Shown: piece after piece, positions 1-6,040 of the stretch
Position numbering within the stretch: the stretch's first letter is position 1
Layout: each line of letters opens with the position of its first letter
From: Nannocystis punicea
GTDB taxonomy: Bacteria; Myxococcota_A; Polyangia; Nannocystales; Nannocystaceae
Assembly (NCBI RefSeq): GCF_026965555.1
Contig: NZ_CP114040.1
Coordinates: 8,964,001-9,028,000, forward strand
Reading direction: 5' to 3'
DNA length: 64,000 nucleotides
Program-made: the position numbers and the translations under genes
Notes under the pieces: model-generated
What the model was told of the DNA's origin: nothing
Databases searched by the model: none
Seen by the model: the letters and a program-made list of their open reading frames with translations, nothing else

Positions 1-790
1 GCTCGAGCTCGCGGTTGCTGCGCTCGAGCTGCTGCATGTAGTCGCGCAGCTGCTGCTCCGCGTAGCGCTTGGCCTCCTCGGCCTGCCGCTCCTGGGTGAC
101 GTTGCGGGTGATCAGCACGACGCCGATCGAGCGGTCGCCCTCCATGATCGGACCGAGGCGGCTGGCGTAGTTCTCCTTGCGGCCGTCGGGGTACATCGCG
201 ACCGTCTCGTACGCGATGAGCTTGCCCGTCTCGCGCACCTCGTCGTAGCGGGCGCGCATCGGCTCCTGCTCCTCCGGCGCGGCGAACGCCAGCATCGGCG
301 TGCCGATCGTCTGGGCCACGGTGAGGCCCGGCGGGACCCGATTCACGCCGTTGAGCACGCCGTGCTCGTCGGTCGTGAAGACGATGTCGTGCATCGTCTC
401 GAACACCGCCGCCAGCCGGCGCCGGGCGTCGTCCCGCTGGTGCCGCAGCTCGTCGAGGTCGGTGAGCTCGCGGACCGCGATCACCAGCAGCTCGAGCGAA
501 CGGTCGCGGCCGCACCGCAGCGTCACCGCGCGATAGCTGGCCCCGGCGCAGCGCAGTCGGCACGTCAGCTCGACGGTGATCCCGTCCTCGTTCGCCCGCT
601 TCAGCCCGGTCGACACCCGCTCCCGGTCGTCGGGATGGACCTGATCGGCCAGCGATTGGCCGAGCAGCTGGGCGCTCGTGCTCTCGAGAAATTGCGCCGC
701 GGCTTGATTGACCACGGCGAGCCGGCCCTCCCTATCAAGGCAGATGAACGGCTCGTGGGCGAGAGCAAACAGCGCAGGATAGTCGGGCAA
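1..790 (-). CDS. PAS-domain sensor protein, C-terminus cut by window edge
   Basis: The frame is open from a TTG at 790 (GAGGGGG lies 5 nt upstream) to the window edge, giving 263 codons of an incomplete protein. The first about 100 residues read as a PAS fold (PALFALAHEPFICLDREGRL, VNQAAAQFLE, VHPDDRERV). A second PAS unit follows after a short charged helix (FETMHDIVFTTDEHGVLNGV, then YPDGRKENYASRLGPIMEGD). A coiled-coil linker begins at the edge (EEAKRYAEQQLRDYMQQLE). This arrangement normally precedes a histidine kinase, GGDEF or further PAS module, but the effector is outside the window. No transmembrane segment is seen, so it is probably a cytoplasmic sensor. It lies downstream of the P450 gene on the same strand, separated by 145 bp, so co-transcription is possible but unproven. 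Confidence 0.8.
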   Translation of the reverse strand, partial: MPDYPALFALAHEPFICLDREGRLAVVNQAAAQFLESTSAQLLGQSLADQVHPDDRERVSTGLKRANEDGITVELTCRLRCAGASYRAVTLRCGRDRSLELLVIAVRELTDLDELRHQRDDARRRLAAVFETMHDIVFTTDEHGVLNGVNRVPPGLTVAQTIGTPMLAFAAPEEQEPMRARYDEVRETGKLIAYETVAMYPDGRKENYASRLGPIMEGDRSIGVVLITRNVTQERQAEEAKRYAEQQLRDYMQQLERSNRELE

Positions 791-935: not shown

Positions 936-2327
936 TCAGCGACCCGCGCCGCGCAAGCGCGCGTAGATCGGACGATCGGGGTGCACCGTCGCGGTCGGGC
1001 GGATTCCGACGTGCTGATCCGGCAGCACGTCGATTCGAAATCGGGACAGGATCAGGACCAGCGCGGTGCTCAGCTCGTAAATCGCGTAACGCTTGCCGAT
1101 GCACGCGCGCGCCCCCGCACTGAATGGGATGTGTGCATACCGGTGGCGAGCCCGCACCTTCTCCGGCGCGAATCGTTCAGGGCGGAAAGCCTCCGGCTCG
1201 TCCCAGAACGCGGGGTGATGGTGGCAGAAATACGCCGAGAACATGATGAAGCTGCCCGCCGGGATCCGCCGCGCGAGCAGGACGTCGTCCTCGCGCACCT
1301 CCCGAGTCTGCGCCCATATCGGCGGCCGCAGACGCATGACCTCGTCGAAGACCATTCGCGTGTACGTGAGACGATCGAGGTCCTCGATGGTGGGCACGCC
1401 CGTCAGCCCGAGCCCCGCGATCTCTTCGCACACCTTCGCGTACACGTCCGGATGCTGGCCGAGCAGCCAGAACGTCCAGGTGAGGATCAGCGCCGTCGTC
1501 TCGTGGCCGGCGACGTACTGCGTGACGATCTCGTCGCGCAGCTGCCGGTCGCTCATGCCGTCGCCGGTGCCGTCGTCGCGCGCCTCCATCAGCAGCCGCA
1601 GCAGCGTCGGCTGCGACTCGGGCCCGGCCTTCCGCGCGTGACCGATGATGTCGTAGACGATGCCGTCGAGGGTCCGCAGCGCCCGACGAAAGCGCAGATT
1701 CGCCGGCGTCGGCACCGACAGCGGCAGCGCCATCGCCCCCCGGTTCATCCGCTGTCCGGCGATCTCGAGGCTCTCGGTGACCGCCCGCGACGAGGCCCCC
1801 TCGCGATCGCTGAGGTCCATGCCGAAGAGGGTAAAGCCGACGATGCGCTGGGTGAGGTGCATGATCTCCGCGTGCAGATCGAGCACCGCGTCGTCGCGCC
1901 GGCGCGCCTCCCACTCGACGAGCATGTCGTCGACGCAGCGCGCCATCACCGGCACCATTCGCCGCAGGTTGTCCATGTGGAACGCCGGCTGGGTCAGCTT
2001 GCGCTGGCGGACCCAGAAGTCGCCGGTGCTGGTGACGAGGCCGTTGCCGAGCAGCGGACGGATCGGGTCGTAGCCCTTGCCCTTGTAGTAATTGTCGACC
2101 CGCGTGTGGAGGATCCGCTCGATCGCGTCGGGGTGGGCGGTGAAGATGATCCGGCTGCGACCGCCGGTGGGGATCTGGAAGAAATCGCCGTACTCTCGCC
2201 AGCAGCGCTCGACGTACTCGAAGATGCCTTCGCGCAGGATGGCAGGGAGGGCGCCGACCAGCGGATAGCCGGCAGGCCCGGGCAACCGGAGCAGCTGCTC
2301 CGCTCGTGGATGGAGGAGTGTATTCAT
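936..2327 (-). CDS. Cytochrome P450 of the terpenoid operon
   Basis: 463-residue P450. Hallmarks are visible: I-helix AGHETT near residue 274, ExxR as EVMR near 330, and the heme-ligand loop FSAGARACIG with Cys near 410. The N-terminus (LPGPAGYPLVGALP, then GNGLVTSTGDFWVRQRKL) resembles CYP102/CYP4-like or bacterial class E enzymes rather than the short CYP105 type. No membrane anchor is present, so it should be cytosolic. Its ATG at 2327 follows the terpene synthase stop directly, indicating translational coupling, so its likely job is hydroxylating the cyclised terpene. No ferredoxin or reductase gene is adjacent; redox partners must come from elsewhere, possibly the ferredoxin at 41.6 kb. 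The family assignment is firm; the substrate is inferred from the operon. Confidence 0.93.
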   Translation of the reverse strand: MNTLLHPRAEQLLRLPGPAGYPLVGALPAILREGIFEYVERCWREYGDFFQIPTGGRSRIIFTAHPDAIERILHTRVDNYYKGKGYDPIRPLLGNGLVTSTGDFWVRQRKLTQPAFHMDNLRRMVPVMARCVDDMLVEWEARRRDDAVLDLHAEIMHLTQRIVGFTLFGMDLSDREGASSRAVTESLEIAGQRMNRGAMALPLSVPTPANLRFRRALRTLDGIVYDIIGHARKAGPESQPTLLRLLMEARDDGTGDGMSDRQLRDEIVTQYVAGHETTALILTWTFWLLGQHPDVYAKVCEEIAGLGLTGVPTIEDLDRLTYTRMVFDEVMRLRPPIWAQTREVREDDVLLARRIPAGSFIMFSAYFCHHHPAFWDEPEAFRPERFAPEKVRARHRYAHIPFSAGARACIGKRYAIYELSTALVLILSRFRIDVLPDQHVGIRPTATVHPDRPIYARLRGAGR

Positions 2328-2328
2328 G

Positions 2329-3210
2329 TCACCTCGCTAGGTCCGTCTCGAAGCGGAGCGGACCGGTGGCGTACCATCGATGAATGCAACGAACGAGTCG
2401 GGACAGCGTGGCCGCGAACGGATCGCGGGCCCCGAGGCGATCGAGGTTGTGCTGCAAGAGCCGCTCGTAGCCCTGCCGCTGCGCCTCGACGAACGCGCGC
2501 GCCTGCGCGGGCGAGAGGTCGCGCTCCAGCAGGAGGACCGCGTTCGACACGCGCCCGGCGTGCCCCTCGCGGCGCTCCTTCTCGGCACTCTGGAGGTCGT
2601 TGAGCAGCCGCTGCGAGAGGTAGAGGTAGCGCTCGACGTTGGCGATCCGCGGGTCGTCGTGCCGCCGCGGCCGATCGAGCCGGCGCACCAGATAGGCGGC
2701 GGTGAGGATGCTCGGCAAGGTGGTGCTGTGCGCGCCCGTCTCGATGCACTCGACCAGCGAGCGCGCCTCGGCGTCGCGCGACATCCGCTCCTCGGCGAAC
2801 ATGGCCCGGAACACCTTGGCCGAGCCGACGCGGAACCATCGGTGCTCGTCGCGGCTGCCCGCGAGCGGCGCGAGCAGGTCGCACAGGCGCTGAAAGAAGC
2901 GGACCTCCGGCGTGTCGGCGCCGCCGCGCGGCGGCTCGTCCTCGCCGTACGCGATCAGCGTGTCCCAGTCGACCGGCGTCTGCTGCTCGCGCAGGAACTT
3001 GTCGCTGCGATCGTCGAACCAGAACCAGTAGGCGCTGACGAGGGCGATGAGGAACACCTCCTCGCGGCCGTCGACCTGGGGGTCGACGCAGGCCTCGGCG
3101 ACGTACAAGCCGTCGGCCGCGTGGTGCACTGCGAAGTCCTCGAAGTCGGCGGCCCACGCCATGATGCGGGCCAGCAAGACCTGGTCGACGGCGGCGGCGA
3201 TCCGGCTCAT
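2329..3210 (-). CDS. Class I terpene synthase
   Basis: 293-residue class I (ionisation-dependent) terpene cyclase. The Asp-rich Mg-binding motif is DDRSD at residues 66-70, preceded by the aromatic run YWFWF. The NSE motif is NDLQSAEKE at residues 204-212. A C-terminal HRWYATGPLRF matches the product-capping region of bacterial terpene synthases. Enzymes of this family abstract diphosphate with three Mg ions and cyclise the carbocation. The gene starts 1 bp after the class II cyclase stop and ends 1 bp before the P450 start. In such operons the class I enzyme usually acts on the product of the class II enzyme. The length is slightly short for the family (about 300-350), with both metal motifs intact. 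Confidence 0.88.
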   Translation of the reverse strand: MSRIAAAVDQVLLARIMAWAADFEDFAVHHAADGLYVAEACVDPQVDGREEVFLIALVSAYWFWFDDRSDKFLREQQTPVDWDTLIAYGEDEPPRGGADTPEVRFFQRLCDLLAPLAGSRDEHRWFRVGSAKVFRAMFAEERMSRDAEARSLVECIETGAHSTTLPSILTAAYLVRRLDRPRRHDDPRIANVERYLYLSQRLLNDLQSAEKERREGHAGRVSNAVLLLERDLSPAQARAFVEAQRQGYERLLQHNLDRLGARDPFAATLSRLVRCIHRWYATGPLRFETDLAR

Positions 3211-3211
3211 G

Positions 3212-4861
3212 TCACGCGGCTCCTTCCGGCACTGCGGCGACGCGGACCGGCCACGGCCAGTTGCGGCGCAGCGCCGCCCGGATCCCGCCGACCACGAAGG
3301 CCTGGGTGTGGGTGATGAAGTGGCTGAGCAGCGGCCGCGGTCCGAACATGTCCGGAGTGCCAGGCCAGGTCCCGTCGGCCCGCTGGGCGTCGACCAGGTA
3401 TTGCAAGGCCCGATCGACGCGCCCCGGGTGGCGATCGACGATCGCCTGCAGCGCCAGACCGGTCGCGCTCGCAGTGCTCGCCCCGCCGGCCTCCGGCGAC
3501 CAGCCGCCGTCGTCGTTCTGCCGCGCCGCCAGGGCGTCGACGCCGCGGCGCGTCAGCGGGTGGTCCGGCCCGAGCGCGCGCCCGATCTCCGCCACCGCGT
3601 ACGGCACCCCGCGGTACCAGCTGGCCGACCACACGCCGCGCCGCTCGACCTCCTCCGCCAACCATTGCCGCGCCGTCCCCACCGCGAGCCGGTGGCGCCC
3701 GCGATACGCGTCGAGCGCCGACAACACGTGCGCGACGACGTCCTCCACGGGCGGATCGTCGCGGAATTGCCAGGTCCGCCACAGGCCGTTCGCCATCTGC
3801 ACCCGCGCGAGGTAAGCCAGCGCCCGGTCCTTCGTGCGCTCGCCCTGCATGGTGCCGTGCAGCGCCAGCATCACCGCGCCGGTGCTGTCGTTGTCGGATT
3901 CGACGCCCGAGCGGAAGGGCCACCCGCCGTCGACGTTCTGCGTCGCCTGCAAGAAGTCCAGCGCCGGCTGCAGCGCAGTCTGCACGAATGTGGGGTGCCC
4001 GGCGAAAGCGCGGACGATCAGCGAGGTGTCCCAGACGTCGCTGGTACAAAAGCGCCAGCTGCCGTCGGCCTGTTGATGGTCGAGCAGCTGCGATCGAAGC
4101 ACGAACCACGGGTCGGAGGTCGGCGCCGCGATGCACAGGGCGATGTAGGCCAGGGCCGTGCTGATCGGGTTGAAGAAGAAGCCGGAGCGCGGCGCCTGCA
4201 CGTGCACCAGGTCGAAGCCCGCCGCCTCGACCGCGGTCTGCCGACCGGCGCGCGCCTGCAGCAGAATGTGGAGGGCGATCAGCTCGACCTTGCTCCACTG
4301 CTTGTGCTTGGCCTGCGTGCAGCGCTCGTACTCCCGCGCGACCAGCTCCCGCAATTCGTCCTCGGACCGGCGCGCCCGCACCTCGAGCCCGGCGTGCAGG
4401 GCCAGCGTGTGCAGCAGCATCGTCCGGCTGGCCAGCACCGGCCCGTCGAGCTCGGGCGCGGTCAGGTCGACCACCCCGCCGGCGCCGACGAGGATCCGCC
4501 GCAGCGTATCCTCCAATAGAAAGGACACCGGGTGATGATCCTGCGGCGCCGCCGATTCGACCCACGCCCGCGCCCGCGCCACCGCCCGCCGATCGAGCCG
4601 ACCCGGCGTGTGGGCCAGGGCGTACCCCGCCAGCGCGGTCTCGAAGATCCGCCCGTCCGGCGCCACCTCCCACGATCCGTCGGGCCGCTGCAGCGAGATG
4701 CAATGCTCGACCGCCAGGCCCAGGCACGCCGCCACCCGCTCGGCCAGCGGGTGAACGAGCCGCGATGATGATGATGATAATAACCCCTCGCCGTTCCGTT
4801 CGGCGGAAGGAGATTCGTGCCGAATGGCGCTGCCGCGAGGACTCCGCGCTTTTATTGTCAC
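3212..4861 (-). CDS. Class II terpene cyclase (prenyl-diphosphate cyclase, squalene-hopene-cyclase fold)
   Basis: 549 residues starting at GTG 4861. Repeated QW-type motifs (QRPDGSW, QQADGSW, QNVDGGW, QNDDGGW, QRADGTW) mark the alpha/alpha-barrel beta-gamma fold of class II cyclases. The VWDT segment (276-279) aligns with SHC VWDT, and the acid motif that follows aligns with SHC DVDDT but reads DNDST (residues 323-327): the middle catalytic Asp is kept and the third Asp is Ser. The size fits bacterial copalyl-diphosphate-type cyclases rather than SHC (about 630). The likely reaction is protonation-initiated cyclisation of GGPP or FPP, keeping the diphosphate for the class I enzyme encoded 1 bp downstream. 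The first 35 residues are low-complexity (a Ser run encoded by TCA/TCG), so the true start could be later. No prenyl synthase is nearby. Confidence 0.87.
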   Translation of the reverse strand: MTIKARSPRGSAIRHESPSAERNGEGLLSSSSSRLVHPLAERVAACLGLAVEHCISLQRPDGSWEVAPDGRIFETALAGYALAHTPGRLDRRAVARARAWVESAAPQDHHPVSFLLEDTLRRILVGAGGVVDLTAPELDGPVLASRTMLLHTLALHAGLEVRARRSEDELRELVAREYERCTQAKHKQWSKVELIALHILLQARAGRQTAVEAAGFDLVHVQAPRSGFFFNPISTALAYIALCIAAPTSDPWFVLRSQLLDHQQADGSWRFCTSDVWDTSLIVRAFAGHPTFVQTALQPALDFLQATQNVDGGWPFRSGVESDNDSTGAVMLALHGTMQGERTKDRALAYLARVQMANGLWRTWQFRDDPPVEDVVAHVLSALDAYRGRHRLAVGTARQWLAEEVERRGVWSASWYRGVPYAVAEIGRALGPDHPLTRRGVDALAARQNDDGGWSPEAGGASTASATGLALQAIVDRHPGRVDRALQYLVDAQRADGTWPGTPDMFGPRPLLSHFITHTQAFVVGGIRAALRRNWPWPVRVAAVPEGAA

Positions 4862-4899: not shown

Positions 4900-6040
4900 G
4901 CAATTCGCCTCAGTCGTCGAGCGAGTGCAATGTTTGTTGCGTAACGAGTCCAAACGCTATGCTTCACTCCAGCGCAGCGGCACGGCGAGTCGCATCGACC
5001 CGCCCCACCCTCCGCACACTCTTGATAGTGATCCAAATGTCGCCACGGATCACGTCCCGTCGAACAATTTTTTGTCGTCCCACGAATACAGCGCCAACGC
5101 CGCGCGAGCAGAGAGATTCGCGGTCGCCCGCCACGGGCGTGAACCATGTCCTATGAACAATGTTCGAATGACGTTCATCTGCACCGCGCCGCGATCCGGC
5201 GATTGCTCGGCGAGGCCTCGACGCGGCGGCGCTCGCCCCGCGATGGCAGATGTCGGCTGACGTCATTCATGATGCCAATCCCCGCGGCTGCACCTCCGTC
5301 TACAGGGACTGCCCGATCCTCGCCCGCGAGTCGAATCTCGCCGCAAGCCTCGTGCTCCATGTAGAATGAATCGTCGGGCATCCAGCGGAGCCTGATGCCG
5401 ACTCGGGTTCACCCGCGAGAACCTTTGTCGAGCCCCCGCCCGTCACCCCGTCAGACCTGCCGCAGACCGCCCTGCGAGGCCCGTGAAAATCGCGCACTTT
5501 GCGGGTAGTCGCGGTGCATCCAGGTCGCGAACCACTCGCCGGCGGTCCGCGATCGTACGCCGTTCACAACGGCGGAAGCATTGATCAATCGTACTGTGCG
5601 CATTCACCGTCGGAGGGCCGGCCCGGCCCTGACCGAGTGGGGAGCCGTTCGCTGCTTCCGCACGGTGAGATCTGGGAGCCGGCGAATCGACGGCGGCTCC
5701 CCTTCCGATCCGACCCGGACCTCCGAGGGGGACGCCGGGTGACATCGAGGGAGTCGTCAATCAGGGACTGCGTCGAGCCGGAGGAGTCTGCCGAGGATCG
5801 GCGCAGACCCGGGCGGCGGGGCAGACTGCGAGTACGCCGTCGCAGGTCCGCTCGCGGGGAGGTGCGCCGGCGAGATCGCAACCGCGTCCGTCTGTCGCGC
5901 CCGCGACGGCGTCGCGCGCCGGTCCGCGTGCGAGCGGCGGAACCAACGGCGCCCCGACAAGCTTGCACGCCGCATGACATCTTGGACATGTGCTGCTCGC
6001 TGCGGGCGGCGGTCGGCACGCGCGTGTATCGTCACACGCC
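4900..6040. other. 1.1 kb without a recognisable gene
   Basis: This is the divergent spacer between the terpenoid operon and the antiporter. The first 250 bp are visibly lower in GC than the coding DNA, as expected for a promoter zone. Short open frames exist on both strands (the longest about 200 codons, from 5499), but they are Arg/Pro/Ser-rich translations typical of GC-rich non-coding DNA and carry no motif. I see no RNA gene or repeat here. Confidence 0.5.

Follow-up and report, generated by a model that had tools for sequence, protein, structure and literature searches.

In this study we describe a compact terpenoid operon of the soil myxobacterium Nannocystis punicea, in which three genes on the minus strand encode a class II terpene cyclase, a class I terpene synthase and a cytochrome P450. 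Its two cyclases probably act one after the other, after which the P450 would oxidize the product; sequential protonation and bicyclization, ionization and oxidation is the most economical reading of the locus. Judged by its sequence, the class II gene represents a little-known branch, whose nearest relative is a C15 (drimane) cyclase. The operon lies near one end of the window (the whole stretch of 64,000 nucleotides that was analysed; contig NZ_CP114040.1, positions 8,964,001 to 9,028,000), and its features, in window coordinates, are as follows:

936..2327, minus strand: cytochrome P450 of 463 aa, gene 3 (PF00067, E 8.8e-82)
1095..1124, minus strand: FSAGARACIG, haem-binding loop characteristic of P450s
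1332-1343, minus strand: EVMR, the ExxR motif of P450s
1494-1511, minus strand: AGHETT, the I-helix AGxxT motif of P450s
2329..3210, minus strand: class I terpene synthase of 293 aa, gene 2, an alpha-domain protein that is kaurene-synthase-like by Terpene_syn_C_2 domain, profile, fold and tree
2575..2601, minus strand: NDLQSAEKE, intact NSE metal-binding motif
3001..3015, minus strand: DDRSD, intact DDxxD metal-binding motif
3212..4861, minus strand: class II terpene cyclase of 549 aa, gene 1, of the beta-gamma didomain type (SQHop_cyclase Pfam domains, SsDMS as best PDB relative, member of a clade of 12 rows)
3728..3742, minus strand: DVVAH (D374 and H378), matching in the alignment the D-xxx-H pair seen in several squalene-hopene cyclases
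3881..3895, minus strand: DNDST (DNDTT in orthologs), a DxDTT-type form of the DxDD motif of class II cyclases
5028..5053, no strand: inverted repeat GTGATCC-N12-GGATCAC, a second candidate regulatory site
5155..5165, no strand: near-palindrome GAACAATGTTC upstream of the operon, a candidate operator

All three open reading frames (4861..3212, 3210..2329 and 2327..936) are intact. The sequence TGA-c-ATG occurs at both junctions, which confirms the 1-bp gaps of the original prediction, and the purine runs AAGGAG and GAGGTGA, resembling ribosome-binding sites, precede the starts of genes 2 and 3. The class II gene starts with GTG at position 4861, with AGGA 8 nt upstream. Pfam matches were all above the gathering cut-offs (SQHop_cyclase C and N in gene 1, Terpene_syn_C_2 in gene 2, p450 in gene 3), and domains and motifs agree with the predicted set of two cyclases and a P450. 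The attribution to a myxobacterium was also correct, the organism being a Nannocystis. Four comparisons gave dN/dS values of 0.13-0.41 across the three genes, which indicates purifying selection, and we therefore consider these to be real coding genes. Scans for sigma-70 promoters and terminators found none. The arms of GAACAATGTTC are identical in the window and in four Nannocystis assemblies, with a variable central base, and the element is absent from a divergent metagenome-assembled genome (MAG; L044).

Five further Nannocystis assemblies contain the same three genes, with identities of 55-94%. The class II protein has orthologs with 90-93% identity in N. exedens, N. pusilla and Nannocystis sp. 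RBIL2 and one with 69% in a Nannocystis MAG, in each case with all three genes in the same order. In one of the five assemblies (L045) the reading frames of genes 1 and 3 are interrupted, probably as a result of sequencing errors. Both cyclases are present in six of the seven Nannocystis genomes searched, the seventh (G379) containing neither member of this pair. In four assemblies the operon belongs to a collinear block (~89-90%) that extends from ~3.7 kb past the left end of the window to position 5463. On the same strand, the operon is followed downstream by PAS histidine kinase and response-regulator/kinase genes (window 1-790; L038:2348-6791), and these are likewise collinear in four Nannocystis assemblies.

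The relationships of the class II protein were examined by profile, structure and phylogeny. When a profile of eight relatives was compared with the PDB, the drimenyl diphosphate synthase of Streptomyces showdoensis, SsDMS (7xq4), was placed first (E 8e-32), followed by squalene-hopene cyclase (SHC; 6e-26, mainly over the C-terminal part), and the GGPP cyclases PtmT2 (3.7e-8), Rv3377c (5.4e-6) and Tpn2 (9e-4) gave weak matches. The predicted model is of moderate quality (pLDDT 68.3). With this model the top nine Foldseek matches were all SsDMS entries (E 1.4e-14, nearly full length), and the beta-gamma double-barrel fold is evident from 523 columns aligned to SsDMS, with TM scores of 0.60/0.68. 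In a tree computed without the GGPP cyclases (PtmT2, Tpn2, Rv3377c), the wrongly chosen ORF L120 and the very long row L040, 12 Polyangia proteins form one clade (support 100/100), whose sister, among the sequences compared, is the clade holding SsDMS. Kin outside the Myxococcota were sought by one pattern-based scan with a single-protein query, which detects close relatives.

In all 12 members of this clade DxDD is replaced by DxD(T/S): the window protein has DNDST, its orthologs have DNDTT, and DTDTT, DNDTS and DNDTA are found as well. Residues D323 and D325 are invariant in the alignment, and the fourth DxDD position is occupied by Ser in the window protein. On the basis of this motif D325, the middle Asp, is expected to be the general acid. 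D374 and H378 are also invariant in the class II alignment, and the pair is absent from SsDMS; H378 would presumably assist the catalytic Asp in the manner known from SHC. Since it falls outside the SsDMS clade and has no DxDD, the window protein cannot be classed as an SsDMS-type enzyme. The original prediction of a class II enzyme was correct, and it missed the replacement of DxDD by DNDST. Motifs of the DxDTT type are already known from Rv3377c, AstC and AsDMS, and in AsDMS the middle Asp is essential (PMC5024094, PMC9128629). The class II enzyme is predicted to cyclize a prenyl diphosphate, and its product would keep the diphosphate. We also considered that a class I partner might always go together with loss of Tyr505 of SsDMS, and dropped this idea because L173 has both the Tyr and a partner, and L174, which has no partner, carries Ser. 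A HAD-fused drimenol synthase was rejected as well, no N-terminal HAD domain being found in gene 1 by Pfam.

A best match of gene 1 to SHC had been named beforehand as the outcome that would count against the terpenoid reading. The Pfam names, the presence of SHC among the matches and the retained SHC-like D-xxx-H pair are what would favour a squalene-hopene-type triterpene cyclase with unrelated neighbours. We regard this as highly improbable: SsDMS is the best solved relative, SHCs fall outside the clade and form the outgroup of the tree, the scores are far below SHC cut-offs (63.7 bits against 431.1 for the SHC equivalog TIGR01507), the motif reads DNDSTG and not DxDDTA, and the protein has 549 residues against 631.

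The class I enzyme gave a different picture. Its profile identified the ent-kaurene synthase of Bradyrhizobium, BjKS (4w4r), as the best solved relative (E 9e-12; next family 4.5e-4). Using a good AlphaFold model (pLDDT 83.9), Foldseek also placed BjKS first; LrdC was among the top matches, and general class I synthases followed closely. A 100/100 branch of the class I tree separates the other class I synthases of the genome from the window protein, BjKS and the partners found elsewhere, the exact position of BjKS being unsure because it is a long row. Gene 2 therefore looks like a kaurene-synthase-like class I enzyme, which by its likeness to BjKS may use a bicyclic diphosphate. The N. punicea genome has twelve matches to PF19086 among its class I terpene synthases, and two of these are double-domain ORFs of 762-783 aa. 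In another genome (G223) simple scans found no class II partner near the kaurene-synthase-like class I genes.

The nearest curated families of the P450 are albaflavenone and pentalenene (sesquiterpene) oxygenases. These scores are far below the cut-offs, and the sequence of the protein therefore suggests a relative of terpene-oxidizing P450s, and no more than that. A crude scan of ORFs and motifs saw no P450 near the class II/class I pair in the two other genera in which it recurs; the P450 thus looks like a Nannocystis addition outside the conserved core, a point that the original prediction had missed. Elsewhere in the genome (L184; G000:C1:8742-8761 kb) an SsDMS-like class II gene (DADDTS) has in its vicinity a P450 that shares 35% identity with that of the operon.

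Conservation of the cyclase pair is a direct observation, as are the gene identities, the motifs and the structure of the operon. The pair recurs in two genera besides Nannocystis, in tandem or convergent arrangement: the class II gene is directly followed by the class I gene on the same strand in G236, G327 and G482, and the two are convergent, ~0.5 kb apart, in G514. Of 152 genera, the class I gene is present in 4, the class II gene likewise in 4 and the two together in 3, for which our own arithmetic, treating genera as independent, gives a hypergeometric estimate of ~3e-5. Unpaired genes also occur, G449 having the class II gene alone and G554 the class I gene alone; in the latter genome the kaurene-synthase-like class I gene, with no class II partner of this clade, adjoins a gene with a methyltransferase domain (L175:8895-10843). 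A paralogous DNDTT class II gene of N. punicea is flanked on either side by a P450 gene and has no class I neighbour (L035:7312-12395; G000:C1:9588 kb), and the same arrangement is found in G384 (L176). Therefore the product of a class II enzyme of this kind can probably be used otherwise than by a class I partner.

Outside the window, the same genome encodes a 1,321-aa ORF (G000:C1:8548452-8552414; L112:8453-12418) in which three domains are fused: class I terpene synthase, SsDMS-like class II cyclase (DVDTT) and FAD oxidase of the BBE/EncM-like kind. G379 has an intact ortholog (95% identity, DVDTA) and G384 a broken match; a search of 318 genomes of the class gave no others. Its order, class I-class II-oxidase, is unlike that of the published gamma-beta-alpha fusions.

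The original prediction derived the precursor from elsewhere in the genome, and this is borne out. There is no PF00348 prenyl synthase in the window, and four matches occur in the rest of the genome (13.2 Mb, one contig). According to our reading of the residues preceding the first Asp-rich motif, the match with HAYSLVHDDLPAMDND looks like an FPP synthase, that with HCASLVYDDLPCFDDA like a CrtE-type GGPP synthase and that with HTATLLHDDVID like a long-chain synthase; the fourth is divergent.

In the pathway that we consider probable, FPP or GGPP would be supplied by these synthases from elsewhere in the genome. D325 of the class II enzyme would protonate the terminal alkene of the linear prenyl diphosphate, and the enzyme would close a bicyclic skeleton (drimane- or labdane-like) with the diphosphate retained. 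The class I enzyme would then hold this bicyclic diphosphate through Mg2+ at DDRSD and NDLQSAEKE, ionize it, and close or quench a further carbocation, and the P450 would hydroxylate the resulting hydrocarbon or alcohol. The action of both cyclases on one substrate, the order of the steps and the substrate of the P450 are inferred. The pathway is supported by the motifs and families, by the proximity of gene 1 to SsDMS (profile and fold), by the kinship of gene 2 with BjKS, which takes a class II product (profile, fold and tree), by the genetic linkage of the pair and by the FPP-type and CrtE-type genes in the genome. What speaks against sequential action is the Ser at the fourth DxDD position, the unpaired genes of G449 and G554, the paralog between two P450s, and the fact that similarity does not fix substrate length, the two enzymes pointing to different lengths. 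Independent cyclases, with a host phosphatase removing the diphosphate of the class II product and the class I enzyme using linear FPP or GGPP, would suit that partnerless paralog and also the cav cluster, in which a class I cyclase without a demonstrated role accompanies a drimenyl diphosphate synthase (PMC11035983). Such independence appears improbable to us, given a linkage kept in three genera and two gene orientations and a class I protein that groups with BjKS, apart from the ordinary sesquiterpene synthases of the genome.

As to the length of the chain, the class II sequence favours FPP where that of the class I enzyme favours a C20 bicyclic diphosphate. Since the nearest characterized relative of the class II enzyme cyclizes FPP, we rate a C15 pathway as no less likely than a C20 one; we estimate the chances of FPP as about even, those of GGPP as rather below even and those of any other precursor as small. 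Formation of drimanyl or albicanyl diphosphate from FPP, which the class I enzyme would ionize so as to yield a sesquiterpene hydrocarbon or alcohol derived from drimane, comes close to an even chance in our judgement. It accords with SsDMS as nearest solved relative in sequence and fold, with the sister position of the SsDMS clade (in a tree without GGPP class II cyclases), with the FPP-synthase-like gene and with an operon in which Pfam identified no Nudix or HAD gene; yet the fold neighbours of the class I enzyme are C20 enzymes first, and a search of the open-access literature found no class I synthase acting on drimanyl diphosphate. The alternative, a copalyl-type (labdane or rearranged) diphosphate made from GGPP and converted into a kaurane-, pimarane- or biformene-like diterpene, agrees with the original prediction, and we would give it somewhat less than an even chance. 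It would explain the proximity of gene 2 to BjKS and of its fold to the biformene synthase LrdC, the CrtE-like gene is at hand, and a DxDTT motif is known from Rv3377c, a diterpene cyclase (PMC5024094), but the class II enzyme is far closer to SsDMS than to PtmT2, Rv3377c or Tpn2, by the E values given above. The predicted logic of bicyclization followed by ionization is well supported, whereas the label labdane-type is not established, SsDMS being a cyclase of FPP. With one enzyme nearest to a C15 cyclase and the other to a C20 type, the product cannot be read from known pathways; that it is not evident from the sequence had been stated in the original prediction.

The open-access literature (searched for Nannocystis diterpenes and myxobacterial class II cyclases, subscription papers lying outside this scope) yielded no product or characterization of this gene set. 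Sequential action of the pair would mean that Polyangia possess a distinct class II branch with a class I partner of its own, and that three genes of about 3.9 kb offer a small target for heterologous expression with an unpredictable product. The opposing kinships of the two enzymes, C15 and C20, also make the question of the substrate testable. Tentatively, we propose a C15 counterpart of labdane biosynthesis, in which a DxD(T/S) class II enzyme would form a drimanyl-type diphosphate from FPP and a kaurene-synthase-like class I enzyme would ionize this bicyclic C15 diphosphate. If true, this would give a class of sesquiterpene skeletons beyond the known drimane pathways, in which a Nudix or HAD enzyme removes the diphosphate (PMC11035983, PMC9128629).

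Several characterized systems share parts of this organization. SsDMS and CavC of the cav cluster (PMC11035983) are likewise beta-gamma class II cyclases of similar length, with a C-terminal GPRP motif in common with the window protein; SsDMS differs in having DxDD and no D374/H378 pair, and the identity in structural alignment is ~22-23%. The SsDMS and cav loci contain a Nudix hydrolase (PMC11035983), where the Nannocystis operon has a kaurene-synthase-like class I enzyme instead. The bifunctional drimenol synthases AsDMS and AstC (PMC9128629, PMC5024094) share the DxDTT-type motif, but carry an N-terminal HAD domain, for which Pfam gave no match in the window protein, and their beta domain is only distantly similar. 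BjKS (4w4r, 4xlx), like gene 2, is a single alpha domain of ~300 aa with class I metal-binding motifs; the two are ~20% identical, the class II partner of gene 2 comes from another branch, and the substrate of gene 2 is a predicted one. The combination of class II and class I enzymes, separate or fused, is known in bacteria for diterpenes (PMC9814783, PMC11469919), and the fused gamma-beta-alpha cyclase/synthases (PMC11469919) follow the same logic as the operon, in one polypeptide with DxDD as against two genes with DxD(S/T). As far as the open-access literature shows, a class I enzyme replacing the Nudix or HAD step of a drimane route would be new.
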